From the IMG/VR virus record IMGVR_UViG_3300020055_001822, positions 1 through 36,869 of that record: 36,869 bases of DNA. One strand, given 5' to 3'. This document shows, piece after piece, positions 1-32,489 of this stretch. The position numbers and the translations under genes are program-made. The stretch is from a virus. Each line of letters opens with the position of its first letter. Position 1 is the first letter of the stretch. The notes below the pieces were generated by a model. The model was not told the DNA's origin. It worked only from the letters and a program-made list of their open reading frames with translations, and searched no databases.

Positions 1-240
1 AACGCCCAATGTACTGATCACCATAAATTTTAAATTTTCTTCGTAAGCACGAGTTAATAGCTGCTCATGTGAAGTGTCGATCATTACAGTAGCATTATAA
101 TTTCCTAGTTCGACTATCCAATACTCAGTAATATTTTGACTTAATGCTAATGCTGTGGCCTTTTTAATTCTATCACTGTTGTCAATCCATCCAAAGCCTA
201 TTCGATTTTTAGTTATTATATTATAATCATAAAAGCTCAT
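1..240 (-). CDS. Hypothetical protein, N-terminal 80 residues (runs off the left edge)
   Basis: An open frame starts at an ATG at 240 and stays open to the window edge. The start overlaps the last 14 bases of the rSAM gene to its right, the same coupled spacing used elsewhere here. The protein begins MSFYDYNIITKNRIGFGWID and continues with EYWIVELGNYNATVMIDTSH. The alternation of hydrophobic strand-like stretches (YWIVELG, LKFMVISTLG) with charged helices suggests an alpha/beta domain. No catalytic motif is recognisable in the visible part and I do not assign a function. It is the most promoter-distal gene of the minus-strand series seen here. Confidence 0.7.
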   Translation of the reverse strand, partial: MSFYDYNIITKNRIGFGWIDNSDRIKKATALALSQNITEYWIVELGNYNATVMIDTSHEQLLTRAYEENLKFMVISTLGV

Positions 241-1591
241 GTGTATCTTCCTCATCCATTATATTCATAAATTCTTGATATTTGCTCCAATATTCTGTGT
301 GTCGATTGTTGTCTATGCATTCTTTAAGCCAACGCTCACTATCTCTGATATGTCTAATTTTGTTTATTGTAATTAATTTTTGCTCGTAATCTTTGATATC
401 TTCAACTGTATCTTCTAGTGGTTTGATACGTTCTAATAATTGCTCACGCTGTTGTGTTAACTGCACAGGATCTAATACATTTGCATGTAAAAATTCTGGC
501 ACAGTTAATCTACTGGTGTGCCAACGTATTCCTAAATCGTTTTCTATAGCGTCCATTGTTTCTGTTAAGTACAGTGCATTCATAGCACTAATAGTTGTAG
601 AACCTCTGATAGTTTGTAACTTATTTCCTAAAACCTGTTTGCACTGTTTAATATTTTGTTTTAATGTATTCCAATCGCTACCGTGACGTATCATACTATT
701 AAGTTCTCTATAACCATCAATGCTAATAGTAAGTCTGATGCCTGCAAAATTTCGCCATATATCTAATACATTGCGTCCGTTTTTAAATTCTAAATTTGTT
801 AAATTAGTACTGTATTTTAATATAACATTTTCGGGATTTGGTATTTGACTTATTAATTTAAAATGCAAAGGATCCAATAATGGTTCACCGCCTGCAAACT
901 CCATTTCTTCAATATGTTCTAAGTTTTCCATTAAATCATCAACAAACATAGTACTAGAACTAAACAGATTTAACATCGGATTACGCCGCATGTTGTTGAC
1001 TTCAATGATTGTATCAAGATAATCTCTGTCACCGTCTGGATGTAAATGTTTTACACGATCCCAACTACGCATCCAAGGTGTAGAGTCTTTAGGCCAACAC
1101 ATTCGACAACGTAAGTTACATATATTGCTTAATTTAAATTCAAAAATAGGAACACGCCAATCTACATTTCCAGTTTCGACCCATTCTTTAACAAAATCAG
1201 CATAGCGTTCTACACGTTCTAAATTTTGAGTTTGTCTTAAACTTACAATACCTTTATCTTCTAACTTCCAACACGCACGGCATCGTCTATTCCGTTCACC
1301 ATTGACAAGATCACTGCGTATTTCATTATATGTATTACTTTGCCATATATCTTTAGGAGTAAGGTTTCCGGTAGGGGCAGTGATCAGATCAGGAAACATT
1401 TCATGTATACGATTGTGATTAATTTCTGTAACTTTTTGACTGCGGCAACACAATCGATATTCGCCATTTGTAGTTGTACTCATATGCATAAACGGCATAA
1501 TGCAAAACGTATCATCGTTAACTTCAACTCCCAATGGCTCTAGTATTTCACTAGGCTTAAAATTTTCTGGGCTATTATCCTTATAGTTCAT
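227..1591 (-). CDS. N-twitch radical SAM protein (rSAM-1)
   Basis: Radical SAM enzyme with its auxiliary Fe-S domain at the N-terminus. Seen: C30-x12-G43-x4-C48 followed by C49, then C104-x2-C107, which fits the half-SPASM ('twitch') ligand pattern for one auxiliary [4Fe-4S] cluster. The core CxxxCxxC is C158, C162, C165, followed by the C-x4-S-x2-W signature shared by this family. GGEP (SAM-binding) is at residues 234-237 and a SIDG strand follows. At 454 aa it is a normal length for twitch domain-containing rSAM proteins. It lacks the RN..F...FPE tail found in most siblings and ends in acidic residues instead. The ATG at 1591 overlaps the upstream SPASM fragment by 11 nt. Family is confident; substrate unknown. 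Confidence 0.9.
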   Translation of the reverse strand: MNYKDNSPENFKPSEILEPLGVEVNDDTFCIMPFMHMSTTTNGEYRLCCRSQKVTEINHNRIHEMFPDLITAPTGNLTPKDIWQSNTYNEIRSDLVNGERNRRCRACWKLEDKGIVSLRQTQNLERVERYADFVKEWVETGNVDWRVPIFEFKLSNICNLRCRMCWPKDSTPWMRSWDRVKHLHPDGDRDYLDTIIEVNNMRRNPMLNLFSSSTMFVDDLMENLEHIEEMEFAGGEPLLDPLHFKLISQIPNPENVILKYSTNLTNLEFKNGRNVLDIWRNFAGIRLTISIDGYRELNSMIRHGSDWNTLKQNIKQCKQVLGNKLQTIRGSTTISAMNALYLTETMDAIENDLGIRWHTSRLTVPEFLHANVLDPVQLTQQREQLLERIKPLEDTVEDIKDYEQKLITINKIRHIRDSERWLKECIDNNRHTEYWSKYQEFMNIMDEEDTHELL

Positions 1592-1916
1592 TTTTGCCTA
1601 CTCTTAATTTTTTTATATGTTCTGGATGGGCTTTGCTCAACTGTATATCTGCTGCACAAGTACATTTTTGTTTTGTACATACAATAGGTCCATCTGGCAT
1701 TGTAAATCCATCATATATATTACCCAATGGACCGCCTACACGACAAATTGCACGATACACGGTACCTTGATTGTCTATAGTAACATTTTGCATGCCTGCC
1801 CAGCATAACCATCCTTGGAAACGGTTTGTTTCTTCAGCTAGTAAATCATTTACATTGCTTTCTTCACTAGTACCATCTTCACGATGTACTATAATATTTT
1901 TGAAACTACTCGCCAT
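1581..1916 (-). CDS. Free-standing SPASM-like domain ('SPASM A'), apparent C-terminal half of a split rSAM enzyme
   Basis: A 111-aa protein consisting of a SPASM-type auxiliary cluster domain. Cysteines are C38, C58, C80, C85 and C87, with WLCWAGMQNVTIDNQG, a VYRAICRVGG strand and CTKQKCTCAAD at the end. No rSAM core is present. Its beginning (FKNIIVHREDG...NVNDLL) reads as the natural continuation of the core-only protein at 2909-3604, which stops just after its barrel at EELEWLARV; 231 plus 111 residues gives a normal rSAM/SPASM length. Two other genes lie between the halves. The frame is open to about 2015, but I chose the ATG at 1916 because the upstream part is an out-of-frame shadow of the neighbour. 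It may act in trans with the core protein (inference). Confidence 0.75.
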   Translation of the reverse strand: MASSFKNIIVHREDGTSEESNVNDLLAEETNRFQGWLCWAGMQNVTIDNQGTVYRAICRVGGPLGNIYDGFTMPDGPIVCTKQKCTCAADIQLSKAHPEHIKKLRVGKNEL

Positions 1917-2271
1917 CGTATTTTTTCCACTTACTCCCGCCATTGGGACCAGCAATTGATTCATATGAATTAATAGTACAGTTGTCAAAACATGTAGATG
2001 GTAAGTCAGAACCATCTATTGTAAAGTTTTTTCTAAGTCTTTGATAACTTGGAGACTTTAATATTTCAGAACTTGTTTTTTTGCCATCTATTCTCATATC
2101 AATATCTATATCTAAATTTTGTCTCTGTGCCCATTCACGTAGGCTATGATTATCACCATGTAAAAAACAACAAGGTAGATATCTTCCATCTGGTGTTATC
2201 ATTGGCAGCACTGAATTATAAATGCACTTTGGCCAAAAATTACTTCTCCATTTTGCATTTTTTAAATCCAT
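1906..2271 (-). CDS. Free-standing SPASM-like domain ('SPASM B'), apparent C-terminal half of a split rSAM enzyme
   Basis: A 121-aa protein with C16-x12-G29-x4-C34 then C35, and C94-x3-C98. This matches the C-terminal cluster domain of the intact rSAM/SPASM protein at 9488-10570 (C-x13-G-x4-C-C, then C-x3-C). It has no rSAM core. It follows the core-only gene at 2262-2927 with a 10-nt overlap, and the two together (221+121 aa) approach the length of the intact relative (360 aa). They may therefore be one gene broken by a frame change in the linker, or a genuine two-subunit enzyme. The ATG at 2271 lies next to an A6 run, so a one-base indel or assembly error is possible. Ends with TAG inside the start region of the next gene. 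Confidence 0.75.
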   Translation of the reverse strand: MDLKNAKWRSNFWPKCIYNSVLPMITPDGRYLPCCFLHGDNHSLREWAQRQNLDIDIDMRIDGKKTSSEILKSPSYQRLRKNFTIDGSDLPSTCFDNCTINSYESIAGPNGGSKWKKYDGE

Positions 2272-2927
2272 AAATGCTTGTCCTTTTCATTTTTTACATC
2301 GTATATATGCTCACCACGAGTACTTACAACTGGATTAAAGTAGAAGTTGTTTGCTTCTGCAATTTCTCTAGCTTGTGATACAGTGTCACGGTTATACGGA
2401 AATACCAAATGTTTCCATTCTAAACCCCTAAAACGATTATAATTTTTACCTACAGTTTCAACTGCTGTTTGAATTGACTGCCATCTTGCGCCTCGGCGAT
2501 AAAGATGATTGTTAGACTCGATGCCGTCAATACTAAAAATTATATTCCATTTACTTAAATCTTTTGCAACAAACTCGTTCCAAAATTTTGCAGGACGATT
2601 AGCTGCACTAGTAACTAGTGTACATAAAAAATCTTGTTCTATTAATCTATCTACACAACCTAAAAAGTTTTTATGAAAAATTGCATCACCGTAACATCCA
2701 CACAAATTAAAACTGTAATATTTCCTATCAAATGTTTTTAATATTTGTTCAAATATTTCCATTGACATATCGCCTTTGTACCATCCATGTATTGGGTCAT
2801 TGGAATCTCGGTATGTTCGAACACATCCTGGACAACTAACTGCACAAATACTAGTAAGTTCGAGTTCTATAGAAATTTTAGGTTTGTTTGGCTGTTTGAT
2901 AAAATCCTCTAAACTCTCGCTAACCAT
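2262..2927 (-). CDS. Radical SAM core protein without SPASM ('core B')
   Basis: A 221-aa rSAM core. Seen: C28-x3-C32-x2-C35 in the context TSICAVSCPGC, an FSIDG strand, and a LYRRGARW segment shared with the classical rSAM protein at 9488-10570 (LYRQNVVW). The usual GGEP motif is replaced by CGCYGDA (residues 76-82), matching CGNLGDP at the equivalent place in that relative, so this is a subfamily trait rather than damage. The protein ends shortly after the barrel, with no auxiliary cluster cysteines; these are in the next gene (1906-2271). Starts at ATG 2927, overlapping the previous core gene by 19 nt. Function unknown; probably acts with the adjacent SPASM product. Confidence 0.8.
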   Translation of the reverse strand: MVSESLEDFIKQPNKPKISIELELTSICAVSCPGCVRTYRDSNDPIHGWYKGDMSMEIFEQILKTFDRKYYSFNLCGCYGDAIFHKNFLGCVDRLIEQDFLCTLVTSAANRPAKFWNEFVAKDLSKWNIIFSIDGIESNNHLYRRGARWQSIQTAVETVGKNYNRFRGLEWKHLVFPYNRDTVSQAREIAEANNFYFNPVVSTRGEHIYDVKNEKDKHLWI

Positions 2928-3604
2928 TCTAGTTCCTCATTGCTATAATATGGATCATCACTGTGCCCGTCATACACTGTTAACCCACTAGCACCCGGTA
3001 ATGCCCAACTACCAGTGACGGGATCGATCTTAGGACGTATACGTCTGATAACCCAGTGAACATCATTTTCATCAAACATTTGAATTAGTTGTTTGCATTC
3101 TTCTAACTTGCCCGGCAAATACATTATGTGGACATGTACTTGATTATTGCCTGTGTTTTGCTTAACATGATTATTTAGTGCAATAATTGTGTCCATGATA
3201 CGATCATGTTTAGCAAATTCAAAATGATAGCTAAAGATATAATAATTGATATAAGGTAAACTGTCAATATAACGTTGTAGTCCAACACTTCCATTTGTTG
3301 TAACACTAAAACGATTGATACCACGGTCTTTAGCATACTTTAGCATTTCAATTATACGTGGATGTACAAAAGGCTCTCCACCGGTCAAACTAACCCGTGT
3401 TATTTTTCCTACACTTTTTGCGGTATCCACTAGTTTGTCGACTGTGCTTGTGTAAACATCCCAAGGCATATGTTCACTTGTACGATCGTGGATGTCGCTA
3501 CCGCAATAGCTGCAATCGTAGTTACAACGTTTGCCTAAATTCCATTCTACACGAAGCCAATCGTCTTTTGGTGCATGATTATCTTCAACTGCTACTAGTG
3601 ACAT
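2909..3604 (-). CDS. Radical SAM core protein without SPASM ('core A')
   Basis: A 231-aa rSAM core starting at ATG 3604. Seen: C27-x3-C31-x2-C34 within GKRCNYDCSYCGSD, and a canonical GGEP at 75-78 (SLTGGEPFVHP), then VTTNGS and FSYHFEF strands. It stops at NEELEWLARV, about where a C-terminal SPASM domain would begin. A sequence resembling its missing SPASM half is encoded about 1 kb further on (1581-1916), beyond a complete second split enzyme. It has the classical order (core first), unlike most rSAM proteins in this window, and lacks the C-x4-S-x2-W signature. Overlaps the SGNH-like gene upstream by 20 nt. Confidence 0.82.
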   Translation of the reverse strand: MSLVAVEDNHAPKDDWLRVEWNLGKRCNYDCSYCGSDIHDRTSEHMPWDVYTSTVDKLVDTAKSVGKITRVSLTGGEPFVHPRIIEMLKYAKDRGINRFSVTTNGSVGLQRYIDSLPYINYYIFSYHFEFAKHDRIMDTIIALNNHVKQNTGNNQVHVHIMYLPGKLEECKQLIQMFDENDVHWVIRRIRPKIDPVTGSWALPGASGLTVYDGHSDDPYYSNEELEWLARV

Positions 3605-4466
3605 TATAATACCTTTCTGCTATTCTCTGTGCAAATCGTTTATGTACGCTACTGTTTAAATGAAAATTAGTTGTCCATACTGCTTCGTCAAATGTTAATT
3701 CGTCATCCATTGCTAATTCTATTCTTCTATTCACAAAGTCTTTTGCAAACTCGAGTATTTGTTTACTAACAAGATGTTTTTGTTTTCGGCCAACAAGAAA
3801 ATTATTATCTATTACAAGATGCATATATTCTGACAAAAGACTATTTTTCTTTAAAAACACACTATCTACATAGATAGGTTTTTTGCCTAATATATTAGTA
3901 ATGGTATTATCAAAAAACATTAAATCAACAAAATATCTATATGCTGACATTTCCCAAGTTTCTCTAGAATAATAATCTGAAGTATATAAATTATTTTTTT
4001 TACTATGTCTACTAAAACTAGATATTAAATATTTTTTATGATTTTCAATATCTGGAGAGGAAGAATTCTTACAATAATACGAATATCTGTCAGAACTAGT
4101 TGTTTGTACAATAACATCTTTTATTTCGATACCTTGAGATTGCAGATCTAGTATATCGTGTAGTGTTTTATACATTATTTCGTAATTACTACTTCCGCCT
4201 ATACTATTATTAATTACTGATATATCTAATATCTGACTTAATTGTGTACTCCATCTATTCTGAACATTAAAGTCTATAAATTGTTTAATATGGTTCGGAT
4301 CCTGATGTAGCCAAGTATCTCGATATTTTTGCCACGATTGAACATTTTCCATTAAATGGTCGTTAAAGTCATTACGAGTTCTACTAACAGCATTTGGGAC
4401 TAAAAAATCTCCTATATCTTCTCCTGCTGTAAAACTATCTCCTGCAATATATATTACCTGTTTCAT
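3585..4466 (-). CDS. SGNH/GDSL-like hydrolase or acyltransferase (SGNH-1)
   Basis: A 293-aa protein with an SGNH-type layout. Seen: a nucleophile motif GDSFTAG at residues 9-15 (Ser11) directly after a short beta strand, a block-II/III-like GGSSN at about 90-94, and a C-terminal NFHLNSSVH at 267-275 in the place of the usual DxxH. There is no signal peptide, so it is probably cytoplasmic. SGNH enzymes hydrolyse or transfer acyl esters, often on glycans; the substrate here is not determined. It overlaps the N-twitch rSAM gene upstream by 4 nt (ATGA), the tightest coupling class. Two further SGNH-like genes in the window also sit beside N-twitch rSAM genes. Confidence 0.72.
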   Translation of the reverse strand: MKQVIYIAGDSFTAGEDIGDFLVPNAVSRTRNDFNDHLMENVQSWQKYRDTWLHQDPNHIKQFIDFNVQNRWSTQLSQILDISVINNSIGGSSNYEIMYKTLHDILDLQSQGIEIKDVIVQTTSSDRYSYYCKNSSSPDIENHKKYLISSFSRHSKKNNLYTSDYYSRETWEMSAYRYFVDLMFFDNTITNILGKKPIYVDSVFLKKNSLLSEYMHLVIDNNFLVGRKQKHLVSKQILEFAKDFVNRRIELAMDDELTFDEAVWTTNFHLNSSVHKRFAQRIAERYYNVTSSS

Positions 4467-5611
4467 TTGTCAATATAATCTTTCAATTCAGGAACAACAC
4501 TGAGAATGTTTTCATTTCTTAACTCATCTAAATCTCTAGTAAAATTAACAAAAGTGTCCCAATGTTTTTTATGGATCTCATCACTGCTTAATTGTTTACA
4601 CAGTGTAGCAAAATCTGATATAGATTCAAGTTGTTGTACAGCCTGTTCACGCAATTGTGCAGGTAATACAAAAGGACTGAGATATATAGGACTGTTACAC
4701 ACTGTAGTAAATGCACTTTTAGCACTGACGTTAGTGTACTCAGCATCAAACTCAAACAAACGCAGATACAGTTCTTTAAGATTTAATAAATTGTATGCTT
4801 GTATAGTAACATTAAATCCTATTTGCACTGTGTTTAAACTGGCATATCTGTCAAGTGTTTTTTCTAATTGTTCAAACGTATATGATCCACCTCTGATATA
4901 TTCATATAATTTGCCTGTGCCTTCGATACTAAACATAATACGAACTTGTTTGAATTGACTTAGCGCATCAAGTATTCCTGGGTTGACTACTGTGCCATTT
5001 GTTGTATACTGAAGTACAATATTTTCACCTCCCCGACGTACTAATTCATTTAAAAATTCTACATGATTTTTAGCCATCATAGGCTCACCGCCTTTGAAAT
5101 CAATACGTTGTAGTGTGTGACTGTGACTGAGTAGTTCTTGTAAATCACTTAGTTCAGTTTGTCTTACTGTTTGTATATCTGCACTGTAGTCTTTTTGATA
5201 ACGTGGATCTCGTTGTGCTAATATACGATCTTCTTTAAACCAACTGTTGCTAGCCCAACTGCCACACATGCGACATTTTAAGTTGCATACATTACTGAGA
5301 TTTATATCAGCTTGTATTAGTTCGACAGGATCGTTTACACTGCGAGTTCCCGAAGGTACAGTAAACTTTTCATCAAACCAAAATCTTCTGCTAGTACCAA
5401 CCATACGTTCACGCTCTGAACAACTGCCACAACTTTTAGGTAATTCGCCTTGTAGCAAACTAGCTCTAACATCTGTTAGTGCAGTTAAACTTTCTTGCAT
5501 ATTGTCTACACCAAAATCGCCTGCACTACCTCTCCACTGACAACAAGGTTTTAATTTGCCACTGGCTGTTACTGCTACAGCATGCCAAGGCATATAGCAA
5601 GCAGGCTTCAT
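4463..5611 (-). CDS. N-twitch radical SAM protein (rSAM-2)
   Basis: A 382-aa N-twitch rSAM enzyme, among the shortest here because the twitch begins almost at residue 1. Seen: C5-x12-G18-x4-C23 plus C24, C61-x2-C64, core C109-x3-C113-x2-C116 followed by C-x4-S-x2-W, GGEP at 174-177, YTTNGT and FSIEG strands, and a tail RNENILSVVPEL. The tail resembles the RN-x-x-F-x-x-x-FPE ending of its siblings. It is coupled by ATGA to the SGNH-like gene downstream and abuts the next rSAM gene upstream, with one shared base at 5611. Substrate unknown. Confidence 0.9.
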   Translation of the reverse strand: MKPACYMPWHAVAVTASGKLKPCCQWRGSAGDFGVDNMQESLTALTDVRASLLQGELPKSCGSCSERERMVGTSRRFWFDEKFTVPSGTRSVNDPVELIQADINLSNVCNLKCRMCGSWASNSWFKEDRILAQRDPRYQKDYSADIQTVRQTELSDLQELLSHSHTLQRIDFKGGEPMMAKNHVEFLNELVRRGGENIVLQYTTNGTVVNPGILDALSQFKQVRIMFSIEGTGKLYEYIRGGSYTFEQLEKTLDRYASLNTVQIGFNVTIQAYNLLNLKELYLRLFEFDAEYTNVSAKSAFTTVCNSPIYLSPFVLPAQLREQAVQQLESISDFATLCKQLSSDEIHKKHWDTFVNFTRDLDELRNENILSVVPELKDYIDK

Positions 5612-6831
5612 TAATATATCTCCAATATACGATTTAATTCCGGAAATGTGTGTGCAAAGTTTTCATTTCTCATAGCATCTAACTTTTTAATTGTGTCTAT
5701 TCTATCAATTTCTAATTGTTCACTCCATTGGTCTGTCAGAATAAAATCTAACGTTGATTTGACAATTATATGATTTGAATGTTTACATTGTGACAATACT
5801 TGAATTATTTTCTGTTTTTGATCAGTCCTCAATGTTCTAATATTATTAAAACTTGTGTTGTTTACATAGTGTTCGTGGTTACCTGGTAGATACCAATTAT
5901 GTTCTAAACAATAATCTACAAGCTGATTCAAATATAATACATTATATATACTCACTGTTGGATCTAGCTGAACTTGATAATTTTGTTTTGTATTTAATTC
6001 AAACAATTGATTAATAGTATGTTTAGCTTGTTCCCAAGCAACACCATGACGTTGATAACTGTATCTATCTTCTATATCATCTATGCTTACTGTTATAAAA
6101 ACTGAACCCATGCTATCTAACAAGTCGGTGTATTGTTCAGGTATAGCAAGTGTTCCGTTGGTGTTGTACCACAATTGTACATCACTAACATCGTAAGTGT
6201 CAGCAAATCTTTGTAAAAATTCAAATTGTCTAGTTATCATAAAAGGTTCGCCGCCCATGACATGGATGTGTTTTATTTTTTCTAAGCCTGATACATCTAA
6301 CCACTGCTCATCTTCATCAACCCATTCGCATTGCTTTTGATATTGATAAATTTCAGTTTGCTTGTAAGTTTTGTTTGAATCTTGTATTCTATATTTGTCT
6401 TTTGCCCAACTGCTACTGTTGTGAACTCCACAAATTCTGCATTTTAAATTACAACGATTTCCAGGTTTTATTTCTAACCATGTGAGTTCATTCTTAGGTG
6501 CAGCACCTTGCATAATCCGATGAGTATAGTTTATTGCTTGTAAACTAGTACTAAATGAAATTCTAGGGCTAAACTTGCTATTATCTTTCCAGCATATACT
6601 ACAATTAGCAAACTGTTTATTTTCAATAAATTGTTGTTGCATTTGTATACGACTCGGATCTTGCAACAATTGCCCGATACTTTTTTTTTGTATTTTTGTA
6701 TCTAAAGGATCGCCCATGCAACAAGGAAGAACATCGCCGTTTGCTTCTATAGCCATGTGTATAAAAGGCATAGCACAAAAGTTATTGCCAGGTTGTTGTA
6801 GCCATTCAGTTATAGTGTCTTTACGATTCAT
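5611..6831 (-). CDS. N-twitch radical SAM protein (rSAM-3)
   Basis: A 406-aa member of the same family. Seen: twitch C19-x12-G-x4-C37 plus C38, C77-x2-C80, core C127-x3-C131-x2-C134 followed by C-x4-S-x2-W (CGVHNSSSW), GGEP at 193-196, YNTNGT and VSIDD strands, and a well-formed tail RNENFAHTFPEL. The start at ATG 6831 overlaps the next gene by 11 nt. It is the second of four consecutive N-twitch genes (4463-9491) that probably arose by old tandem duplication, since all motifs keep their order but the sequence between them is strongly diverged. Confidence 0.9.
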   Translation of the reverse strand: MNRKDTITEWLQQPGNNFCAMPFIHMAIEANGDVLPCCMGDPLDTKIQKKSIGQLLQDPSRIQMQQQFIENKQFANCSICWKDNSKFSPRISFSTSLQAINYTHRIMQGAAPKNELTWLEIKPGNRCNLKCRICGVHNSSSWAKDKYRIQDSNKTYKQTEIYQYQKQCEWVDEDEQWLDVSGLEKIKHIHVMGGEPFMITRQFEFLQRFADTYDVSDVQLWYNTNGTLAIPEQYTDLLDSMGSVFITVSIDDIEDRYSYQRHGVAWEQAKHTINQLFELNTKQNYQVQLDPTVSIYNVLYLNQLVDYCLEHNWYLPGNHEHYVNNTSFNNIRTLRTDQKQKIIQVLSQCKHSNHIIVKSTLDFILTDQWSEQLEIDRIDTIKKLDAMRNENFAHTFPELNRILEIY

Positions 6832-9491: not shown

Positions 9492-10570
9492 TTAAACTGC
9501 TCTCCAAATGGATCAAACTCCGTGCCACATTTCATAGCACATACACCTAACTTTCCTTTTGCTAAACTAGGCAACTGCCAACTAGATTCAATACTACGAA
9601 GAAGATTTCCTTGCATTACTTGTCGCAAGTCGTTATTGATCACATCGATACCTTGTTTTCCACCTGCATCGTCTATATGATCCCATATTTGTTCTACACG
9701 AGGATCTTTATGCCACCATTTGTACATGCGTCCAGCAGTCCAACAGCATGGCATTAATAAACCTTCCGCTGTAATAAAAATATTTTTCTCTTCGGCTACT
9801 TTACATTTAATACTACAACTGTCATAGTATTCATGCATTGAACCATACGTTTTTTCAATTTCTTTTTGTTTAAGTAATGCTAAATTAATATTTTCTTTTT
9901 TAGCAGGCTTTGCAATTACTTGTGTTTGTTCACCTTTGCGATTACGTGCTTGTTGAAAATCTTTTTGTTCACTTTTAGCAGTAAAGAAACGTCCTGACTT
10001 TTTAAGTTGAAAACGTTCTACACCCCATGACTCAGCTAATTCTTTAGCTTCATCAACTTGATGTTCGTTATGTCCAAACACAATAAAGTCCCAACGTGCT
10101 CTACCGCCAGCATCTATAAATGCTCGCATGTTACGTTCTACGTTAGCCCAGACAACATTCTGCCTGTATAAATGATTAGTGTCACTAAGACCATCCACGC
10201 TAAAAATAACAGTACCCATTCTACCGTAGACTTGGGCAAGTTCACGCCACCACGTTTCATCTTTTGCTCCTGCGTTTGTATTCATGCTTAACCACATTGT
10301 GGGGTTGTGTTCTCTAAAATAACGGAATACTTCTAGTGTATCTCGTGCAACAATAGGATCACCTAAGTTGCCACACATGTACATTGTTTTTAATTGTGCA
10401 ATAAACTCTGGTTCAAATATATGTTTACAATCTTCTAAACTTAATTCAGCATTGGTAATATGACGATTGTCAGGACCACCGTTTTCATTGCGATCACACA
10501 TAGGACATGCTGCTTGACATCGTTGCGTAATTTCTAAATGCACTGTAGTTATGTCTTTGTAGTTATACAT
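9488..10570 (-). CDS. Radical SAM/SPASM protein, classical order (rSAM-6)
   Basis: A 360-aa intact rSAM enzyme with the core first. Seen: C18-x3-C22-x2-C25 (QRCQAACPMC), CGNLGDP at about 66-72 in place of GGEP, FSVDG, then a C-terminal SPASM-like domain with C252, C256-x13-G-x4-C275 plus C276, and C344-x3-C348. It is the unbroken relative of the split pair at 1906-2927 and a good template for judging that split. The residue 190-240 linker is rich in Lys and Gln (KKSGRFFTAKSEQK). I chose ATG 10570 over the TTG one codon earlier because it forms a TGATG junction with the preceding small ORF. Confidence 0.86.
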   Translation of the reverse strand: MYNYKDITTVHLEITQRCQAACPMCDRNENGGPDNRHITNAELSLEDCKHIFEPEFIAQLKTMYMCGNLGDPIVARDTLEVFRYFREHNPTMWLSMNTNAGAKDETWWRELAQVYGRMGTVIFSVDGLSDTNHLYRQNVVWANVERNMRAFIDAGGRARWDFIVFGHNEHQVDEAKELAESWGVERFQLKKSGRFFTAKSEQKDFQQARNRKGEQTQVIAKPAKKENINLALLKQKEIEKTYGSMHEYYDSCSIKCKVAEEKNIFITAEGLLMPCCWTAGRMYKWWHKDPRVEQIWDHIDDAGGKQGIDVINNDLRQVMQGNLLRSIESSWQLPSLAKGKLGVCAMKCGTEFDPFGEQFN

Positions 10571-12627: not shown

Positions 12628-12630
12628 TTT

Positions 12631-25185: not shown

Positions 25186-26429
25186 AATAAATCTCTTATA
25201 CGGTTAACTATACGACCAACCGGGCCAGGTTTTAAACAACGTAAACTAGGTATTATTTGCATTACATCTTCATTTCTAATTTTATCAATACTACTAATAT
25301 ATTCTAAAAATTTATCTTGTAGTTCTGTTTTATCTGTATCAAGGCTACGTATAAATCCTTGCATTTCTGGTAAGCACCTGCGCTGTGTATCTTCATTTTC
25401 TAAATCATAATCATCGATATATTTTTGCCAACGCTTCTGTATTTGTTTTCTTTTGTAACGTGGTAACACTTGTGCACGTAGGTATTCTGGGAATAACAGT
25501 GTATTTACATGAATACGATCCGGTTCAATTATACCTTTTTGAACCCAATGATCAAAAAAATCTGGAGCATGTTCTGCATTTAATGCACTAATAGTCGGTG
25601 TAATACCAAATTCAACATTACGAAGTTCACGAGTAATTGTTCTTGCGTTTTGTTCTATTTCTTCCCAAACAGTTCCTGTACGTACATACTCACCAACTTC
25701 TCCCATTGCATCTATGCTAGCATCAACTCGTATACGATCAAAGTGTCTCCAAAGATCGATTACATTTTTGTTCTTGTATTTGAGTTTGCTTAGATTTGTA
25801 TTGTAACTAATGTATATATCTGTTTTGCCAATGTTAATAAGATGTTCAAGAATTTTATAATGTTCATCCATAATAAGTGGTTCACCACCGGCAAAATAAA
25901 GATGTTCTACTGTGTCAATCCAACTTTCCATATCATCCCAAAGTTCGTCTAAACTGCGTTTTACTTTGAGAATACGTTTTTCTTTACCATTGCGTCTGCC
26001 TAATTTTACACTATCGTCATGCCAGTTACTGCTAAGTTCTGGCCCGCAACTTCTACATCTAAAGTTACAGATATTACTAAAACGTATATCCATGTAACCC
26101 ATAAAGATATCGTCTAAACTTCCATCTTCTTTTGTTAATGCTGTTCTTGAATTAAAATGTTCAAATTGATGATTCATATTCATACGCATACTACGAACAC
26201 CATTACTTTCATGTTCGTAACATCTACTACAACCATCAGTTGGAACATCGTTAAGTACATTTAATCTTAACTCACGCATCTTATCACTGTTCCACAATTC
26301 TTTAAAAGATTTGTTGTTTGTGTTGCCTAATTGATAATCATGTTTTGCTAAACAACATGGAAAAGTTGTACCATCTGGCCATATATGCATATGTATCCAT
26401 GGTAATATACAATAGTTTTTATTTTCCAT
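25182..26429 (-). CDS. N-twitch radical SAM protein (rSAM-11)
   Basis: A 415-aa member. Seen: twitch C7-x12-G20-x4-C25 plus C26, C67-x2-C70, core C121-x3-C125-x2-C128 followed by C-x4-S-x2-W (CGPELSSNW), GGEP at 181-184, ASIDA, and RNEDVMQIIPSL near the end, followed by about 18 extra residues with a basic stretch (GRIVNRIRDLL). Its core surroundings (YMDIRFSNICNFRC) are close to rSAM-9 (YLDIRFNNLCNLKC), its neighbour across the convergent junction. Overlaps the kinase-like gene upstream by 11 nt. Confidence 0.9.
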   Translation of the reverse strand: MENKNYCILPWIHMHIWPDGTTFPCCLAKHDYQLGNTNNKSFKELWNSDKMRELRLNVLNDVPTDGCSRCYEHESNGVRSMRMNMNHQFEHFNSRTALTKEDGSLDDIFMGYMDIRFSNICNFRCRSCGPELSSNWHDDSVKLGRRNGKEKRILKVKRSLDELWDDMESWIDTVEHLYFAGGEPLIMDEHYKILEHLINIGKTDIYISYNTNLSKLKYKNKNVIDLWRHFDRIRVDASIDAMGEVGEYVRTGTVWEEIEQNARTITRELRNVEFGITPTISALNAEHAPDFFDHWVQKGIIEPDRIHVNTLLFPEYLRAQVLPRYKRKQIQKRWQKYIDDYDLENEDTQRRCLPEMQGFIRSLDTDKTELQDKFLEYISSIDKIRNEDVMQIIPSLRCLKPGPVGRIVNRIRDLL

Positions 26430-27237
26430 AAATTTCTAAAAGCCTTTCGTGAAAGTTTTTTCTTACTTGTTCTGGATTATTGTTTAACACATACCATAAC
26501 CAAAAACGACTCACTCTTTTTAATTCCTTTGGATTGTAATCAAATATAAAATTAAACCACCTATCTGTTATACTACGACATACCTGCTCAGGCGGTTGAT
26601 ATATACCATGATCAAAATCAATTATTTCAATTTTTGGGTTTTCTACTGTAGGGTCAATAATAAAGTTACTGCATTGATTATCATTTGGATAAAACACAAA
26701 ACCGTGGTCGTCTACTTTATAATTATCTCTTACAAAATCAAAAAATAATTCCCATAGTAATTCAGCATCTTGCAAATGTTTTACATCACTGTTATCATAT
26801 ACTCCAAAAAAATCACCTTCTATTATATCTCTAACTGTTATCCCGGGTATTATATCGTAACATTCAACTCTAAATCCATTGCTCCTGAGATCTAAACTAC
26901 TTTGCATACTACGAGTATGACTAAATGTTTTATACATTTTGTGAAAATTATATCCACTAATTTTTGCATTCAGTCCGACAAATATTTTATACTTTCTTTC
27001 TCCAACAATAATACACTGATTGTATTTTGTATACTTCCAAGTAAGTGCAGTATGATCATTTTCATTTTTTTTCCAAATTGGATCCCCGTCTATAATTAAC
27101 TGTGCAATATCAATCGCAAATTCTTTTAACGAAAGATCAACATGAGTATTAATATTAACACCATGTATTGTTTGACTTAGAAACTGCAAATACTTGTGTA
27201 TAGTATCACGAAGTAGTAAACGGAGGTTGTTTTCCAT
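26419..27237 (-). CDS. Protein-kinase-like fold phosphotransferase, putative
   Basis: A 272-aa protein. Seen: NDNQCSNFIID, where D186 and N191 have the D-x4-N spacing of the kinase-like catalytic loop, and IIDFDHG with D207-F-D209 as the metal-binding DFG/DFD element 21 residues later. The residue before the Asp is Asn rather than His. A Lys in an early strand (RKYKIFVGLN) could be the nucleotide-binding Lys, but no clear glycine loop is visible. This fits the aminoglycoside/choline/lipopolysaccharide kinase branch, which phosphorylates small molecules and sugars. It overlaps both neighbours (11 and 32 nt), which ties it to the methyltransferase-like protein and rSAM-11. Confidence 0.6.
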   Translation of the reverse strand: MENNLRLLLRDTIHKYLQFLSQTIHGVNINTHVDLSLKEFAIDIAQLIIDGDPIWKKNENDHTALTWKYTKYNQCIIVGERKYKIFVGLNAKISGYNFHKMYKTFSHTRSMQSSLDLRSNGFRVECYDIIPGITVRDIIEGDFFGVYDNSDVKHLQDAELLWELFFDFVRDNYKVDDHGFVFYPNDNQCSNFIIDPTVENPKIEIIDFDHGIYQPPEQVCRSITDRWFNFIFDYNPKELKRVSRFWLWYVLNNNPEQVRKNFHERLLEIYGK

Positions 27238-29464
27238 TTAAAATTAAACCCTTTGTTTGACGCTTTAGATATTCGCTCCAAGCATAAAAACTTTGTTCTT
27301 TATATCTAAATTGATGCCAATCAAAAATATTACTATGCCAAAACCATGTAGTTGTTTCATTACTATTTTGATTTATCAATCTTGATAACAATTTACAATT
27401 ATTTACTGCATCTAGTTTGACATAAGTTTTAGGTATACTTGAATATCTTTTCAAAAAGTTTAACCAATCATATTGTGTAATTTCTAATGTATCTAAATCT
27501 TCATTAATTGCATCTCTGATGCTAGTGTGTGAACCTCCCCAAAGTGGTTGAATTCTACTATCAACTGTTTCCTTATAAACTTCAAACGCTTGATCAAAAA
27601 TACTATTATCAGTAATGCTTACTTTTGTAAGCCAGTTATCTTGCCACATTCTATAATCTACACTTTGTGGAACAACATCAACATATATAAACTGAAACTC
27701 TTTTCCAAAATAATTATCAATGTGTGCTTTGTACATACTTTTAAATCCTGCACAGACACTAACATATGTTTTAATATTTCTTTGATTACGAACAAGTTCG
27801 CCGTCTTTTTGACTGCTCAAATCTTCTGTATTTGTCAAGTACACCTGATGTTGTAGTTGTTCTAAACTAAAATCGGGTTGTAAATGGTGTACATGATTCT
27901 CACTATCTGCGTTAAAATCTGCTTTAATTTTTCTCTTGGGACGTTCTATATCAGTATATAAACAATATACTGCTCTGTTACCCATTCTTATATCCATGTC
28001 AACATTTTTCATGCTCCATGCCCAACGATCAAGTAATGGAATAAAATCTGGACTTTGATAACTTTTACTTGGACGTGGTTCAGATATAATAATACATTTT
28101 GGATTGTATTTTTCTATTAGACTTTGTACATACTCATCGGTGCTTGGTAATCCATTTTTACCAAAATAATAAAGTATGCCACTTAAAATAATACAGTCAA
28201 ACTCTCGATTATATTCAGGTAAACTTAACGCATTCGCTACTTGATAATCATGATTAGGATAGTTAGTTTGACAATATTTAATACACTCAGCATCTGTGTC
28301 TACACCAGCAATATTATAATTATAGTCTGTTAAAAACTCGTTGACCCGACTATAACCACAACCAATATCGAGAATGTTATCACAGTGATTTTCTTTAACA
28401 AAATTTGCAATTTGCTGAAAAAGAGGATTTGCACCTGTACCGTTTAGATAGTTCCATGTATAATCATCGGATTCATCTTCTTCAATATATGCTCCAGTGA
28501 CATACGGATATTGTTTCCGCAATAGTACAAATGACTTATAACTCAAAGGATCAACTAATTCTCCAAGTCGGGCTCTTCCTGGAAAATATTTATTTTCACG
28601 ATAATTAATGTATTCTTCTAATTTGTTTTCTTTGCACCAGTCATACATTGAAAGAATACTCAGATCATAGTTAAATGAAACTTGCGCTGGATCTTCATTG
28701 CGTCGGTTAAATTTAAAATTTACCATTGGACGCACATGTGTTTGTTGCTTTACTTCATTGTTTTTAATTAAGTCAATATCTGCTGTGCTAAAACAAGTTG
28801 CTAAATCTTTACCTACAGTTCCAAAGTCTAAATACAAAACTCCAGATTGATCTTCATTGCAAAATCTATAATAGTCGCTGTTAGTAAGTGGCAAATCTAA
28901 TTCTTCGTCTTTGCAATTACGTATTACTGTTAACAAACTAGGATCGTTATCTATATTCTTTTCTAATATATGAACTAACTGATTTATACTTTCGAGCCAT
29001 TGGTATAGTTGTTGATATTCATCTGGACTATTGTTTAATGCATAACTTACATCTTCAAAATATCTATGCAGTGCATTTAGTTTATCTAATTGTCTGTCAG
29101 ATATAGTTTCGTCAATATACCAATCTGTATTAATTGGATAATTTTTTCTAGCCCACGCATGATGATCGATACTTTCAATGATTTGGTTTAATTCTTTTCT
29201 ACACTCTGCATATATTTCCGGTGTAATACTTCCATACTCATTTACAAATAAACGATGTGTTGATACATTTAGATTTCTTACATTCCATGCTTGAATAAAT
29301 TTATTGGTTAATTCAGTTTCATCTAATTTAAATTTTATAATAAATCCGTCGTGCTCAACAGGCATATCAAATTTATTAAACGGTTGATAAAGCAATGATG
29401 TACTGTTATCAACCGAATGAGATTCAGACGATTTATTACCAAACTGAACTACAAAGTATTTCAT
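27206..29464 (-). CDS. Multidomain methyltransferase-like protein, 752 aa
   Basis: The largest gene in the window. Residues 1-340 are an unrecognised domain containing YLDFGTVGKDLATCF and PGRARLGELVDP. Residues about 345-515 are a class I SAM-dependent methyltransferase: motif I ILDIGCGYSRV (364-374), GVDTD ending strand 2 (387-391), and CIILSGILYYFG as motif IV. Residues about 560-735 look like a further Rossmann-type unit, with YVSVCAGFKSMY (567-578) and FIYVDVVPQ (592-600) in the places of motif I and strand 2, then WFWHSNIFDWHQF. The reaction and substrate are unknown. The CAGFKSMY strand recalls CAGWYA in the repeat-bearing protein at 10781. Coupled by ATGA to rSAM-12 upstream. Confidence 0.78.
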   Translation of the reverse strand: MKYFVVQFGNKSSESHSVDNSTSLLYQPFNKFDMPVEHDGFIIKFKLDETELTNKFIQAWNVRNLNVSTHRLFVNEYGSITPEIYAECRKELNQIIESIDHHAWARKNYPINTDWYIDETISDRQLDKLNALHRYFEDVSYALNNSPDEYQQLYQWLESINQLVHILEKNIDNDPSLLTVIRNCKDEELDLPLTNSDYYRFCNEDQSGVLYLDFGTVGKDLATCFSTADIDLIKNNEVKQQTHVRPMVNFKFNRRNEDPAQVSFNYDLSILSMYDWCKENKLEEYINYRENKYFPGRARLGELVDPLSYKSFVLLRKQYPYVTGAYIEEDESDDYTWNYLNGTGANPLFQQIANFVKENHCDNILDIGCGYSRVNEFLTDYNYNIAGVDTDAECIKYCQTNYPNHDYQVANALSLPEYNREFDCIILSGILYYFGKNGLPSTDEYVQSLIEKYNPKCIIISEPRPSKSYQSPDFIPLLDRWAWSMKNVDMDIRMGNRAVYCLYTDIERPKRKIKADFNADSENHVHHLQPDFSLEQLQHQVYLTNTEDLSSQKDGELVRNQRNIKTYVSVCAGFKSMYKAHIDNYFGKEFQFIYVDVVPQSVDYRMWQDNWLTKVSITDNSIFDQAFEVYKETVDSRIQPLWGGSHTSIRDAINEDLDTLEITQYDWLNFLKRYSSIPKTYVKLDAVNNCKLLSRLINQNSNETTTWFWHSNIFDWHQFRYKEQSFYAWSEYLKRQTKGLILNGKQPPFTTS

Positions 29465-30936
29465 GCTCCGAGTGTATCCTTTTCAGTATTCCAACCTCCT
29501 ACTTGTAGATCATCATTTACATAGTCTTCAGTCGTTGCTGGATCGCCTTGTGCATCAATACTAGGAATAATTTTATCTGAGTTATACCCTATACTGTCAT
29601 ACCATTCAACAAAACTAGGAAACGTAGCACGGAAATCTTTTCCACGGCGTTTGTCGTACTGTTCGTAAAAGTAACGGAAGTCATTGTACAGTTTAGGAGT
29701 TTCAGCAGTATTGCGATGTGGAGTTTTTACAACGTCTAAATAATCAATAAGTCGTTGTACTTGTGCAATTTCTCTAACATTTAACATATCCATTTGTGAT
29801 GGCAACCACGTTTCAATTTTTTCTTTAAACTTGTTTTTAAGTTCAACAGGAAGAATTGCTGCACTTTGGAAACTTGGAAAACGTAAAATGTTTAACGAAA
29901 GAACAGGAGCACGTTCGCCGTATTCTTTTCTTAATTCCATCATGTCGTCCATAAACTCAGTAATTGTTTCTAAACATAAACTATTAATAGTCATCATACA
30001 ATGTAGTTTTTTAATGTTTGACTGCTTTAGCAAACGCTCAATGTTGCTGCGCCATACATCATACTTAAACCCATCACGAGTATATTCATTTTGTGGGCCT
30101 GCACACTCTGCACTAGTATAGATTTCAAAGTTACGAATATTAAAAGTACTATCGATCATACGCTGAAAGTGTCGTTCATTTTCAGGAACAAGATTACTAT
30201 TAATAGCAAAACGCATATTGCTATGCGGATTTTGATCAAACCAATCAAACAGTTTCCAAATACTTTTATGCATAAGAGGTTCACCGCCAGTAACACGAAT
30301 TTCTTCTAAACTATCACTAAGTCCATTTTCCCACCATTTCCAAAAGGCTTGAATGTACGGATTATCTTCTTCGAGTTTTGTACTACGTGCAGCCCATGGT
30401 GCAGTATCAGTAAAATGCCCACGTCCGTCACTTTGTATATTCATGTACGGACCATCTTCTTTGATATCTTTAACCCATGTACTACTAAATGCAGGATTAC
30501 AATAAGAGCAAGCAAAATTACAAGCACGGTCAAATGCAATTTCTAGTGTTTTAAGATTTACATCAGCGTCCCATGGCATTTCGGCACTTGCTCTAACATC
30601 ATCATCTTTAAAAATTTCTGTTTTATAAACACGATCACTGACATTATCTCTACCAATGTCTTCAACTTTCCAGCAGTATTCGCATTCTTGCGGACGCTCA
30701 CCCTTGAGCATCATTTCACGCATTTTCTTTTTATGTTTTGTATTATGAATAGCAGTGTAGTTTTCTTTTAGTTCCTCCATTGGAATCCAATGTCCGGGAG
30801 GGTGGTGACAACTAGCAGTTTGTCCATGTCCTAACCAGATAGTAGCATTATACCATTTTGCAGCACAATAACTATCACTGATTGGATCAATCATTCTCTT
30901 TTTGTATTCTTGAAAATCTTCGTCTTGTCTTCTCAT
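29461..30936 (-). CDS. N-twitch radical SAM protein, C-H-H variant (rSAM-12)
   Basis: A 491-aa member of a distinct branch. Seen: C24-x13-G38-x4-C43, but the second Cys of the usual CC pair is His (SCHHPPGH); C85-x2-C88; core C139-x3-C143-x2-C146 followed by C-x4-S-x2-W (CNPAFSSTW); GGEP at 217-220; tail RRGKDFRATFPSF. A block NPYIQAFWKWW before GGEP is shared only with rSAM-13. Every motif residue number is identical to that of rSAM-13, so the two are clear tandem duplicates. About 40 residues follow the tail, a longer C-terminus than in siblings. Confidence 0.9.
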   Translation of the reverse strand: MRRQDEDFQEYKKRMIDPISDSYCAAKWYNATIWLGHGQTASCHHPPGHWIPMEELKENYTAIHNTKHKKKMREMMLKGERPQECEYCWKVEDIGRDNVSDRVYKTEIFKDDDVRASAEMPWDADVNLKTLEIAFDRACNFACSYCNPAFSSTWVKDIKEDGPYMNIQSDGRGHFTDTAPWAARSTKLEEDNPYIQAFWKWWENGLSDSLEEIRVTGGEPLMHKSIWKLFDWFDQNPHSNMRFAINSNLVPENERHFQRMIDSTFNIRNFEIYTSAECAGPQNEYTRDGFKYDVWRSNIERLLKQSNIKKLHCMMTINSLCLETITEFMDDMMELRKEYGERAPVLSLNILRFPSFQSAAILPVELKNKFKEKIETWLPSQMDMLNVREIAQVQRLIDYLDVVKTPHRNTAETPKLYNDFRYFYEQYDKRRGKDFRATFPSFVEWYDSIGYNSDKIIPSIDAQGDPATTEDYVNDDLQVGGWNTEKDTLGA

Positions 30937-32489
30937 ATATTTTCTCTTTCGCTATTATGTGCTGCATCGCAGTCTTTCCACCAAACACTTAATTCAGGAA
31001 AAGTTTCAATAAAGTTGGTGTTACGTCTTTTGTCAAGTGTATTAAAATATTTCCAAAAATGCACTTGTCTTTTACTTAGTTCATCTTTGTCTATACCATT
31101 TTTGATCCACGAAATATCACGTTTAAGTTTTGCTACTTCGTGATTTAAAAACCCGTGATAAGTATCTTCGTAATCTTCTTTAGCAATATTATCTTCCATA
31201 AACTTAACACAATCATCTAACATATTCATAAGTTCAGGAATATAATGAGCATTTTGTGCACTCATCCATAATGGTTCTCTCAAATATGGAATATCAAACC
31301 AAACTCGTTGTCGTTTTTTTCGTGTAAACGGTCCTCGCTTTTTACCAGTTTCGTCAATTGGTGATACTACAACTTCAGGTTGATTTTTAAATCCAAACTC
31401 TATACGTAAGTCTAATATCATTTGTAAAAAGTCTTTAAGTTTTGGAATACTCAACAAATTGAATGTGTTAATAAATGTAACACTCGTTCCTGTCGTTTCT
31501 CTTAGTATGTGACGAGTATTGTTTAACATAGTATCATAATTTAAACCAGTTCGAATATACTCTGCTTGCGGACCTACGCTATCTACACTTACAAATAAGT
31601 TAAAGTGTTTACATGCAGGAGCAACAAACCAATTGTTCTCAGTGTAAGGATTGATTTTCTCAGGATCTTCCCATATTCTAACTTCTTCTATTGCTTTTAA
31701 AGAATTCATAAACTTATCAAATAACTTTTGTTCCGGAGGGCACATGTTACTAGTAATACTAAGTTCAATATCTTGATTAGGATGAATGTTAACATAATCT
31801 AATACCTTAAAGGTATTTTTATCCATCAATGGTTCACCACCAGTCATTCTAAATATTTTTAAATCTTTATAAAGATCGGGCCACCAATCCCAAAATGCTT
31901 GTACATATGGATTTTCTTTGTTAGCACCTTCGATTGGCATTAATCCTGCTTTTCTAAGACTAGCAATGTCGTTGTGTTTTGTTTCTTTATTAAACACAAC
32001 TGGACCAAACTCTTTGATTTCTTTTTCCCATTCGGTACTTAGGTGAGGACTACAATATGTACATTTAAAATTACACGCTTGATTAAAATTTACTTCTACA
32101 TAACGAGGGTTAATATTTTCATCCCAGCCTCCGTCAACTACTTCTTTCCATCCGTCGGCACCGATCCAATCTTCACTTGAACGATAATGTCTATCACTCA
32201 TGTTTCCATTGTCTTCGATATTCCAACAATAACTACATCCTTCGGGTCTTTTTCCCTCCCACATTTCTTTACGTTGTCGTACTTTCTCATGTGTGTTGTG
32301 TAGTGCACGTGGAGTAACTGCTAACTCACTTAGTGGAACTTTATGAGTCGGGGGATGGTAACAACTTTGTGTTAATCCTTGTGGTAAGTGCATACTAACC
32401 TGCAACCATTTAGCCATACACATAGTAGGACTAATTTTGTCAAGTTTAGTTTTAGTTTTTTCAGCATTTTTAAAATAATCGTCTGACAT
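30933..32489 (-). CDS. N-twitch radical SAM protein, C-Y-H variant (rSAM-13)
   Basis: A 518-aa member, the longest rSAM protein here. Seen: C24-x13-G38-x4-C43 with SCYHPPTH, C85-x2-C88, core C139-x3-C143-x2-C146 followed by C-x4-S-x2-W (CSPHLSTEW), GGEP at 217-220, VSVDS, and tail RRNTNFIETFPEL. A stretch unique to it, EEVRIWEDPEKINPYTENNW, is inserted between the first strands after GGEP and the VSVDS strand. ATG 32489 has GAGGA just upstream and directly follows the TAA of the glycosyltransferase-like gene. Coupled to rSAM-12 by a 4-nt ATGA overlap. Confidence 0.9.
   Translation of the reverse strand: MSDDYFKNAEKTKTKLDKISPTMCMAKWLQVSMHLPQGLTQSCYHPPTHKVPLSELAVTPRALHNTHEKVRQRKEMWEGKRPEGCSYCWNIEDNGNMSDRHYRSSEDWIGADGWKEVVDGGWDENINPRYVEVNFNQACNFKCTYCSPHLSTEWEKEIKEFGPVVFNKETKHNDIASLRKAGLMPIEGANKENPYVQAFWDWWPDLYKDLKIFRMTGGEPLMDKNTFKVLDYVNIHPNQDIELSITSNMCPPEQKLFDKFMNSLKAIEEVRIWEDPEKINPYTENNWFVAPACKHFNLFVSVDSVGPQAEYIRTGLNYDTMLNNTRHILRETTGTSVTFINTFNLLSIPKLKDFLQMILDLRIEFGFKNQPEVVVSPIDETGKKRGPFTRKKRQRVWFDIPYLREPLWMSAQNAHYIPELMNMLDDCVKFMEDNIAKEDYEDTYHGFLNHEVAKLKRDISWIKNGIDKDELSKRQVHFWKYFNTLDKRRNTNFIETFPELSVWWKDCDAAHNSERENI

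Follow-up and report, generated by a model that had tools for sequence, protein, structure and literature searches.

The window analysed here is the whole of the linear IMG/VR virus record IMGVR_UViG_3300020055_001822 (36,869 bases), a fragment of a phage genome. It carries an array of genes for radical S-adenosylmethionine (SAM) enzymes, twelve of them of the N-twitch type, together with genes for glycosyltransferase-like and putative virion proteins. CxxxCxxC cores are found in 15 open reading frames (ORFs) between 227 and 32489, as had been proposed in an earlier reading of the same DNA that used no database searches (the sequence-only reading).

An array of N-twitch radical SAM enzymes

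SPASM/twitch enzymes are known in their general roles, and their additional domains bind auxiliary [4Fe-4S] clusters. In twelve of the 15 ORFs the auxiliary motif (C-x12/13-G-x4-C plus CxxC) is placed before the core, and all twelve belong to the NCBIfam family NF033640 (N_Twi_rSAM, "twitch domain-containing radical SAM protein", a model name that gives no function) with 253-427 bits against a cut-off of 170. The inverted layout described by the sequence-only reading is thus found in 12/12 cases, whereas none of 14 control genomes contains a match above the NF033640 cut-off. Pfam Radical_SAM matches 13 of the 15 core ORFs, 12 of them above its cut-off; at E 0.001 it gives no match for 30933-32489, which is recovered by NF033640, or for 2262-2927. 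The N-twitch genes are listed below with their NF033640 scores and, for two of them, the ratio of nonsynonymous to synonymous substitution rates (dN/dS); groups refer to a comparison of five array records described in the next section.

30933-32489, minus strand: N-twitch radical SAM, core group in 5/5 array records; 304 bits; dN/dS 0.03
29461-30936, minus strand: N-twitch radical SAM, core group 5/5; 314 bits; grouping and selection estimate
25182-26429, minus strand: N-twitch radical SAM, group in 4/5 records, modelled; 406 bits; pLDDT 94.9; predicted fold
23986-25185, minus strand: N-twitch radical SAM, core group 5/5; 357 bits
22835-24004, plus strand: N-twitch radical SAM, group in 3/5; 326 bits
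20806-21990, plus strand: N-twitch radical SAM, group in 3/5; 253 bits
15325-16722, minus strand: N-twitch radical SAM, core group 5/5; 325 bits; dN/dS 0.03
8214-9491, minus strand: N-twitch radical SAM, without close relative in the set examined; 352 bits; nearest of 215 proteins at 2.1 substitutions/site
6821-8230, minus strand: N-twitch radical SAM, core group 5/5, upstream end of left operon; 427 bits; in 10/23 operon loci
5611-6831, minus strand: N-twitch radical SAM, left operon; 254 bits; relatives 39-44% identical, in one of two places in the gene order
4463-5611, minus strand: N-twitch radical SAM, left operon; 283 bits; relatives 48-57% identical
227-1591, minus strand: N-twitch radical SAM, left operon; 281 bits; relatives in 22 loci at 40-52% identity

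Seven cysteines are invariant across 69 aligned N-twitch members. One of the twelve proteins, 25182-26429, was modelled with AlphaFold2 from 69 aligned sequences, and the model (mean pLDDT 94.9) predicts a radical-SAM fold, in line with the assignment drawn earlier from motifs. It matches BlsE in VIA-align with Z 12.9 and a root-mean-square deviation (rmsd) of 3.6 over 218 residues, tied at the top with anSME, SkfB, SuiB, DesII and viperin; most of the top matches barely cover the N-terminal hundred residues of the model.

Conservation, gene order and phage carriers

Viral contigs were searched with single N-twitch proteins as queries, since the twelve share no stretch that is sufficiently conserved for a joint profile. 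All 47 records searched, which were chosen from loci found with window genes, contain N-twitch genes above the cut-off. The raw counts for these records include weaker radical-SAM matches. Matches above the cut-off were counted by hand for seven records. The sequence-only reading had proposed looking for contigs with at least five such genes, and these seven carry 11-14 each: 12 in the window, 11 in G001, 14 in G004, 13 in G012, 14 in G015, 11 in G023, where they are spread over several places of the record, and 12 in G030. The records were picked by similarity to window genes, and the counts say nothing on phages in general.

A tree was computed for 215 of the 514 family members (at least 330 amino acids, intact core, one per 90% cluster). 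Each window N-twitch protein has 3-57 relatives elsewhere that are closer to it than its nearest window partner. For eight of the twelve a relative lies within 0.63 substitutions/site, whereas nearest window partners are 2.4-3.55 apart; 20806 has its closest relative in the near kin G003 and the next at 0.68 substitutions/site. When the 64 N-twitch proteins of five records were grouped at distance 1.2, 35 groups were obtained, nine of which span at least two records. Five groups occur in all five records (30933, 29461, 23986, 15325 and 6821) and 26 are restricted to a single one, which in a plain reading means a conserved core with a changing remainder; 227, 4463, 5611 and 8214 have no group partner in the five records. 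A duplicate within one record was seen in one group only, in G012. Apart from this pair, recent tandem duplication is ruled out by the tree and the grouping, and the N-twitch copies are old, separately conserved paralogues. Seven of them could be compared between the window and G003 and show dN/dS of 0.03-0.09, a simple script estimate in which dS is 0.6-1.0 and hence near saturation; these seven copies are under strong purifying selection. To the related but distinct enzymes of the sequence-only reading our analysis therefore adds old orthologue groups and selection on seven members, and such groups fit many distinct reactions. Distinct reactions, and the single product class that had been proposed for them, are inferences at this stage.

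The left part of the window forms an operon that recurs in other records. Of 23 further loci, among them several near-identical ones, 21 keep the order 4463-2909-1581-227, and 10 have 6821 in front of it. The relatives of 5611 occupy one of two places, ahead of 4463 (the arrangement of the window) or between 2909 and 1581. Record G001 (68,869 bases; locus L107) matches the window at 98.7-99.96% identity from ~9648 to 36869. This identity ends inside 9488-10573 at ~9650, beyond which G001 has other array genes. Misassembly of the window at this point was considered. The left part recurs as an operon elsewhere, and record G053 holds a full-length relative of f3 (see below) together with the left operon; a natural cassette difference is therefore likelier than misassembly, and ~9650 is likelier to be a cassette boundary than the junction of a chimaera of two related phages.

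Such exchange could also be seen as ordinary accumulation of auxiliary genes at a recombination hot spot behind the virion genes, with little joint function. The difference from G001 left of ~9650, the 26 groups found in one record each and the existence of bacterial N-twitch clusters would suit this explanation. It is set against five groups common to all five records, a constant gene order at the head of the array, the low dN/dS of the seven genes compared and the maintenance of the four-gene order of the left operon, and we regard it as improbable.

Besides the twelve N-twitch genes, three ORFs with radical SAM cores are present: a SPASM-type enzyme, in which the core precedes the auxiliary motif, and two proteins that consist of the core only. 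These and two small ORFs that might complement the core-only proteins are the following.

9488-10573, minus strand: radical SAM, auxiliary motif after the core (at residue 257); Pfam Radical_SAM 41.8 bits
2909-3604, minus strand: core-only radical SAM, probable catalytic half of a split enzyme; Pfam Radical_SAM 55.5 bits
1581-2015, minus strand: stand-alone auxiliary-cluster (SPASM-like) domain; ~105 residues conserved at 59-70% identity; translation start probably further downstream than that of the ORF
2262-2927, minus strand: core-only radical SAM, perhaps a second split enzyme; NF033640 and TIGR04317 (37.5 bits), both below cut-off
1906-2271, minus strand: possible C-terminal twitch-like half for 2262-2927; C-x12/13-G-x4-C at residue 16; 10-base overlap with 2262-2927

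The family of 1581-2015 (~112 residues) has members in 22 of 24 sequence sets, the window counted among them, and matches six loci in the genome collection. Judged by eye, it resembles the C-termini of longer radical-SAM proteins (L157:8900-10087 and L158:11712-12689), and in L117, L120 and L128 a core, confirmed by Pfam, and a 1581-type domain are joined in one chain beside an N-twitch gene. The families of 2909-3604 and 1581-2015 co-occur in 21 of 23 loci, and to judge from these comparisons the two ORFs are probably one enzyme in two subunits. By analogy of layout, 2262-2927 and 1906-2271 may be a second split enzyme. In L168 and L174 a small separate ORF follows the core of the 2262 family; BLAST did not link these small ORFs to 1906-2271, which itself gave no family match in profile searches. 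Next to the radical-SAM gene 9488-10573 lies 10570-10794, which encodes a conserved protein of 74 residues whose family is found in 10 of the sequence sets compared, window included.

The carrier is a phage, and its relatives, all of them represented by fragments, include T4-type, jumbo-sized records. A T4-type gp23 capsid gene was found in 15 of 21 related records and in 2 of 16 left-operon records, but not in the window, G001, G004, G015, G029 or G030, all of which are fragments. The window itself has no capsid gene. Its 198-kb relative G012, which has the same block of genes, encodes a capsid protein that shares 71% identity with its counterpart in Pseudomonas phage PA5oct and 70% with that in Vibrio phage 2.275.O, in a collection that may lack pelagimyophages known from metagenomes. 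Among the matches listed for f5, a large virion protein, are phages of ~280-490 kb, and two related records have 342 kb each. Against 50,697 deposited phages, neither bases 1-20000 (megablast) nor f3 and N-twitch 30933 (tblastn, E 1e-3) gave a match. N-twitch 25182 matched 16 records at 22-24% identity, all from Vibrio phages except for one single-cell virus, and 6821 matched two Vibrio phages.

Virion block, glycosyltransferases and a promoter-like motif

The right end of the window links the array to a conserved block of genes, a feature that, like the split enzymes and the promoter-like motif described below, was absent from the sequence-only reading. The block and the other recognised features are listed here.

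36611-36868, minus strand: C-terminal end of f2, putative virion protein (role from position), continuing in G001
36196-36543, minus strand: small conserved protein f6; 31 non-redundant members; place in block
35290-36195, minus strand: GT8-like (glycogenin-like) glycosyltransferase; profile of 20 relatives matches glycogenin, E 6e-6
34412-35293, minus strand: second GT8-like glycosyltransferase; same GT8-like profile
33451-34467, minus strand: conserved protein f4, between the GT8 pair and f3
32490-33488, minus strand: protein f3 with predicted GT-A fold; model pLDDT 86
27206-29464, minus strand: large protein with methyltransferase-like domain; below NCBIfam cut-offs
19657-20280, plus strand: 2-oxoglutarate (2OG)-Fe(II) oxygenase-like; E 5.5e-4, below Pfam cut-off
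17656-17678, no strand: divergent ATAAATA pair between two gene runs, 26 and 28 nucleotides before possible starts
14640-15335, minus strand: sugar-1-phosphate nucleotidyltransferase-like; Pfam NTP_transf_3 and NTP_transferase above cut-off
12732-14228, minus strand: NodU-type carbamoyltransferase; Pfam 181 and 128 bits
11911-12627, minus strand: shorter paralogue of f3, by family clustering

Of the 31 loci listed, 20 have their genes in the order f6, GT8, GT8, f4, f3, N-twitch. In L024 two genes stand between the block and the first N-twitch gene, in L007 and L012 another family replaces f4, and nine loci are without the block or do not reach it. Where a locus extends far enough, the block mostly lies behind f5/f27, f9, f10 or f2. 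From f6 through 23986 each gene overlaps or directly adjoins the next, and a single gap of 67 bases lies before f6. Families f5/f27 belong to a PHROG virion structural family and f10 has weaker PHROG matches to virion structural and tail fibre families; this and the position of f9 and f2 suggest for these two a role in the virion as well, perhaps as fibres.

For f3, a GT-A fold is predicted by the model, which over ~residues 9-159 matches B4GALNT1 in VIA-align (Z 10.5, rmsd 3.0-3.1, 140 residues) and has SunS as its best Foldseek match. Sequence searches of the PDB gave no match for one GT8-like protein or f3 as single queries or for a profile of family f7, and the f3 profile gave a poor ankyrin match only.

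The motif ATAAATA forms the core of the late promoter of T4 (TATAAATA), a promoter that also has a cyanophage form. It is depleted in the window, with 3 occurrences observed and 25.7 expected; TATAAATA itself is observed 0 times against 7.7 expected. Across 15 loci ATAAATA is the rarest of 21 permutations and the one closest to gene starts: 23 of 53 copies lie 10-45 nucleotides before a start, compared with 15 of 66 for the second-ranking TAAATAA, an overlapping permutation, and at most 11% for the rest. It is found upstream of 25 of 28 copies of f9, the first small gene of the run that leads into the array, but of only 7 of 219 N-twitch, 0 of 62 GT8 and 0 of 31 f4 genes. In G001 it is located 21 nucleotides before f9, and between f9 and 23986 only one further copy is present in the window, inside 27206-29464. 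In G012, 18 motif-bearing genes were found and 10 of them scanned; the five with a functional match all encode virion proteins, namely portal, tail fibre, baseplate hub, virion structural and (weakly) tail spike proteins. The right-hand array thus appears to be transcribed late, together with virion genes.

The neighbours of N-twitch genes in phages were surveyed for 115 of 138 representatives, with at most two per family, so that the counts are not frequencies. The 25 of 60 families listed include six radical SAM proteins, four NAD epimerases, three LamG proteins and three nucleotidyltransferases, as well as two each of carbamoyltransferase, GT7, UDP-sugar dehydrogenase, aminotransferase, nitroreductase, cupin, methyltransferase and 2OG oxygenase. 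Many of the recognised neighbours thus belong to families that act on glycans or sugar nucleotides, and the expanded N-twitch battery interleaved with sugar genes that the sequence-only reading had described is borne out by these neighbours and the family searches. Radical-SAM and related enzymes are also known in pathways of DNA and nucleotide hypermodification, and the array could in principle produce modified bases that evade restriction. Its ties to virion genes and the motif, and recognised neighbours that are mainly glycan enzymes, make this highly improbable.

Two further proteins were observed among the neighbours. In L083 and L084 the f11 proteins are GT7 glycosyltransferases fused to a LamG-like lectin domain (by Pfam on L083), and members are encoded side by side near N-twitch genes. 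In the window, ORF 20261-20809, between the oxygenase-like and an N-twitch gene, encodes a small protein with a phenylalanine-glycine-rich C-terminus and has five non-redundant members.

A proposed glycan-tailoring island and its precedents

The best explanation of the window is an island of the host-recognition type. More specifically, we tentatively favour, at well below even confidence, that the array is a late, virion-linked island for glycan or glycoprotein tailoring. Virion genes, two GT8-like proteins, one protein of predicted GT-A fold and the first N-twitch enzymes would then form one tight run behind a late-promoter-like motif. The glycosyltransferases would assemble a glycan on one of the proteins of the particle (most likely a fibre), which the N-twitch enzymes would then modify, tailoring the glycan or the surrounding peptide by hydrogen-atom abstraction, with epimerisation, oxidation, deoxygenation or cross-linking as possible outcomes. 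Carbamoyltransferase, SGNH-like hydrolases, oxygenase and nucleotidyltransferase could act as helpers, and the five-enzyme shared core could make a common scaffold to which the swappable set gives variant decoration. This proposal builds on gene order, families, the modelled folds of one N-twitch protein and f3, orthology, selection on seven genes and motif position, from which we infer the acceptor, the late timing and every reaction. The (YG)n loop of long-type f2, which occurs with varying length in 8 of 11 long-type f2 rows (L004, L014, L016, L017, L020, L021, L023 and L024), is a candidate acceptor; phages with short-type f2 pairs are without the long loop, yet keep GT8 and N-twitch genes.

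Several observations weigh against a late, virion-linked glycan island. PHROGs assigns the relative of f9 to a family of unknown function only and gives no match for the relative of f2; since neither has an assigned function, our confidence is reduced. The glycogenin match of the GT8-like profile is weak and covers positions 3-110 of 283, and most neighbours fall in no recognised family. As for the motif, f3 has its own ATAAATA in 12 of 34 cases, and 9 of the 10 scanned G012 genes are located in the 40-kb surroundings of the capsid gene, where virion genes are expected, in a scan of motif-bearing genes only. No ATAAATA is found in the ~140 nucleotides upstream of the G012 capsid gene, nor in the shorter stretches examined upstream of two other capsid genes, one of only 34 nucleotides. 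It heads the gene run in only 3 of 11 left-operon loci, and late transcription is therefore not claimed for the left operon. The top fold matches of the 25182-26429 model comprise enzymes acting on sugars (BlsE, DesII), nucleotides (viperin) and peptides (anSME, SkfB, SuiB), so that the fold does not reveal the substrate. Finally, four loci (L083, L084, L086 and L093) have N-twitch genes next to relatives of the GT7-LamG proteins but do not have this virion block.

The adjacency of N-twitch and glycosyltransferase relatives in these last loci would also suit remodelling of the host envelope, a close rival of the reading just given, in which the lipopolysaccharide O-chain or the capsule is altered during infection, blocking competing phages or freeing progeny from debris. 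The available text of a study on pelagimyophages draws the same inference for the glycosyltransferases of host-recognition clusters and describes a similar locus, in which fibre genes are accompanied by GT8 genes and cassettes of radical-SAM genes (PMC7029224). The neighbours also fit, as they include carbamoyltransferase, nucleotidyltransferase, epimerases and UDP-sugar dehydrogenases. However, the initiating transferase PF02397 and the flippase PF01943 were each found in 0 of 23 records, all of them fragments and searched for no further initiating family; their place could be taken by enzymes of the host or of a different family. The motif furthermore ties the run to virion genes, although late modification of the host would still be compatible with it. 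On balance we consider envelope remodelling doubtful, but only slightly less likely than the virion-linked island.

A sugar-free alternative is that the N-twitch enzymes resemble the maturases of ribosomal peptides and modify virion proteins, for example the YG loop of f2, or a small peptide. SPASM peptide maturases are among the closest solved folds and the loop is present in most long-type f2 rows, but phages whose f2 pairs are of the short type have N-twitch arrays without the long loop. A PqqD-type domain was found in 0 of 10 records searched, whereas the control search was positive in 3 of 14 genomes, and this makes peptide maturation the weaker reading. Nor did an obvious precursor gene emerge from two surveys, of ORFs of at least 60 and at least 35 residues, in which conserved small ORFs such as f6 and 10570-10794 were not checked. 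Peptide modification is accordingly judged unlikely.

Returning to the virion-linked glycan island, a bolder version would be that a clade of phages, some of them jumbo, runs a late combinatorial line of radical chemistry, with five conserved and further swappable N-twitch enzymes plus split core/cluster radical-SAM subunits, which rebuilds the glycans or tyrosine-rich loops of the phage's own fibres, so that fibre chemistry and not sequence sets host range. We advance this as a rather unlikely, speculative extension. The locus, in which many old, separately conserved N-twitch members are tightly packed together with probable glycosyltransferase partners and which recurs in dozens of viral records, suggests a virus that chemically tailors its own particle or the host surface. 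As a natural N-twitch set with such partners it makes the function of the family testable, and glycans of the virion or the envelope could turn out to be targets of radical chemistry.

The sequence-only reading knew of no system built in this way, and here it was mistaken, because radical-SAM-rich, T4-like marine phages are on record. According to the available text, the T4-like marine genome TARA_ERS488813_N000010 (183 kb) contains 12 radical-SAM genes and an Fe-S carrier gene (PMC5332604), and thus many radical-SAM genes in one phage, as here; A-type Fe-S carrier genes are present in 8 of 23 array records (G023, G031, G036, G040, G047, G053, G055 and G061), though not in the window. The pelagimyophage host-recognition cluster, in the accessible part of its description, is a hypervariable island where tail fibre and GT8 genes occur together with cassettes of radical-SAM genes (PMC7029224). 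It is similar in type to the island described here, but the capsid protein of G012 is instead nearest to PA5oct-type phages, and f3 and N-twitch 30933 have no match among the deposited phages. In the available text of both papers the N-twitch family is neither named nor given a function. Likewise, the accession NF033640, a function for N-twitch enzymes and a comparable array were not found in the literature searched, from which subscription journals are mostly missing.

Among deposited phages, Vibrio phages such as KVP40, K566 and K567 have 1-3 N-twitch relatives per record at 22-24% identity, and no array of this size was seen in them. Bacteria, Bdellovibrionota among them, possess up to 8 N-twitch genes in one locus, with 5-8 in ~20 kb on contigs of Bacteriovoracaceae, Halobacteriovoraceae and Oligoflexia (L126, L123 and L124); in L123 and L124 a PhoX phosphatase gene directly precedes an N-twitch gene. 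In bacterial loci N-twitch genes have a fused radical-SAM/SPASM-like protein as neighbour, joined in L117 and L118 by a carbamoyltransferase. The bacterial neighbours, of which 93 of 184 were scanned, give a mixed picture: the 25 of 78 families listed include 13 radical SAM, three GT2, three SPASM, two PhoX, two GGDEF and one carbamoyltransferase. Homologues of f3 and GT8 occur in only one of 37 bacterial loci, L131. This contig from a Rhodobacteraceae metagenome-assembled genome, on which they accompany four N-twitch genes, is perhaps a phage contig binned with the bacterium. The radical-SAM-rich kind of island is therefore already known, and the N-twitch array with these partners is a new variant of it.

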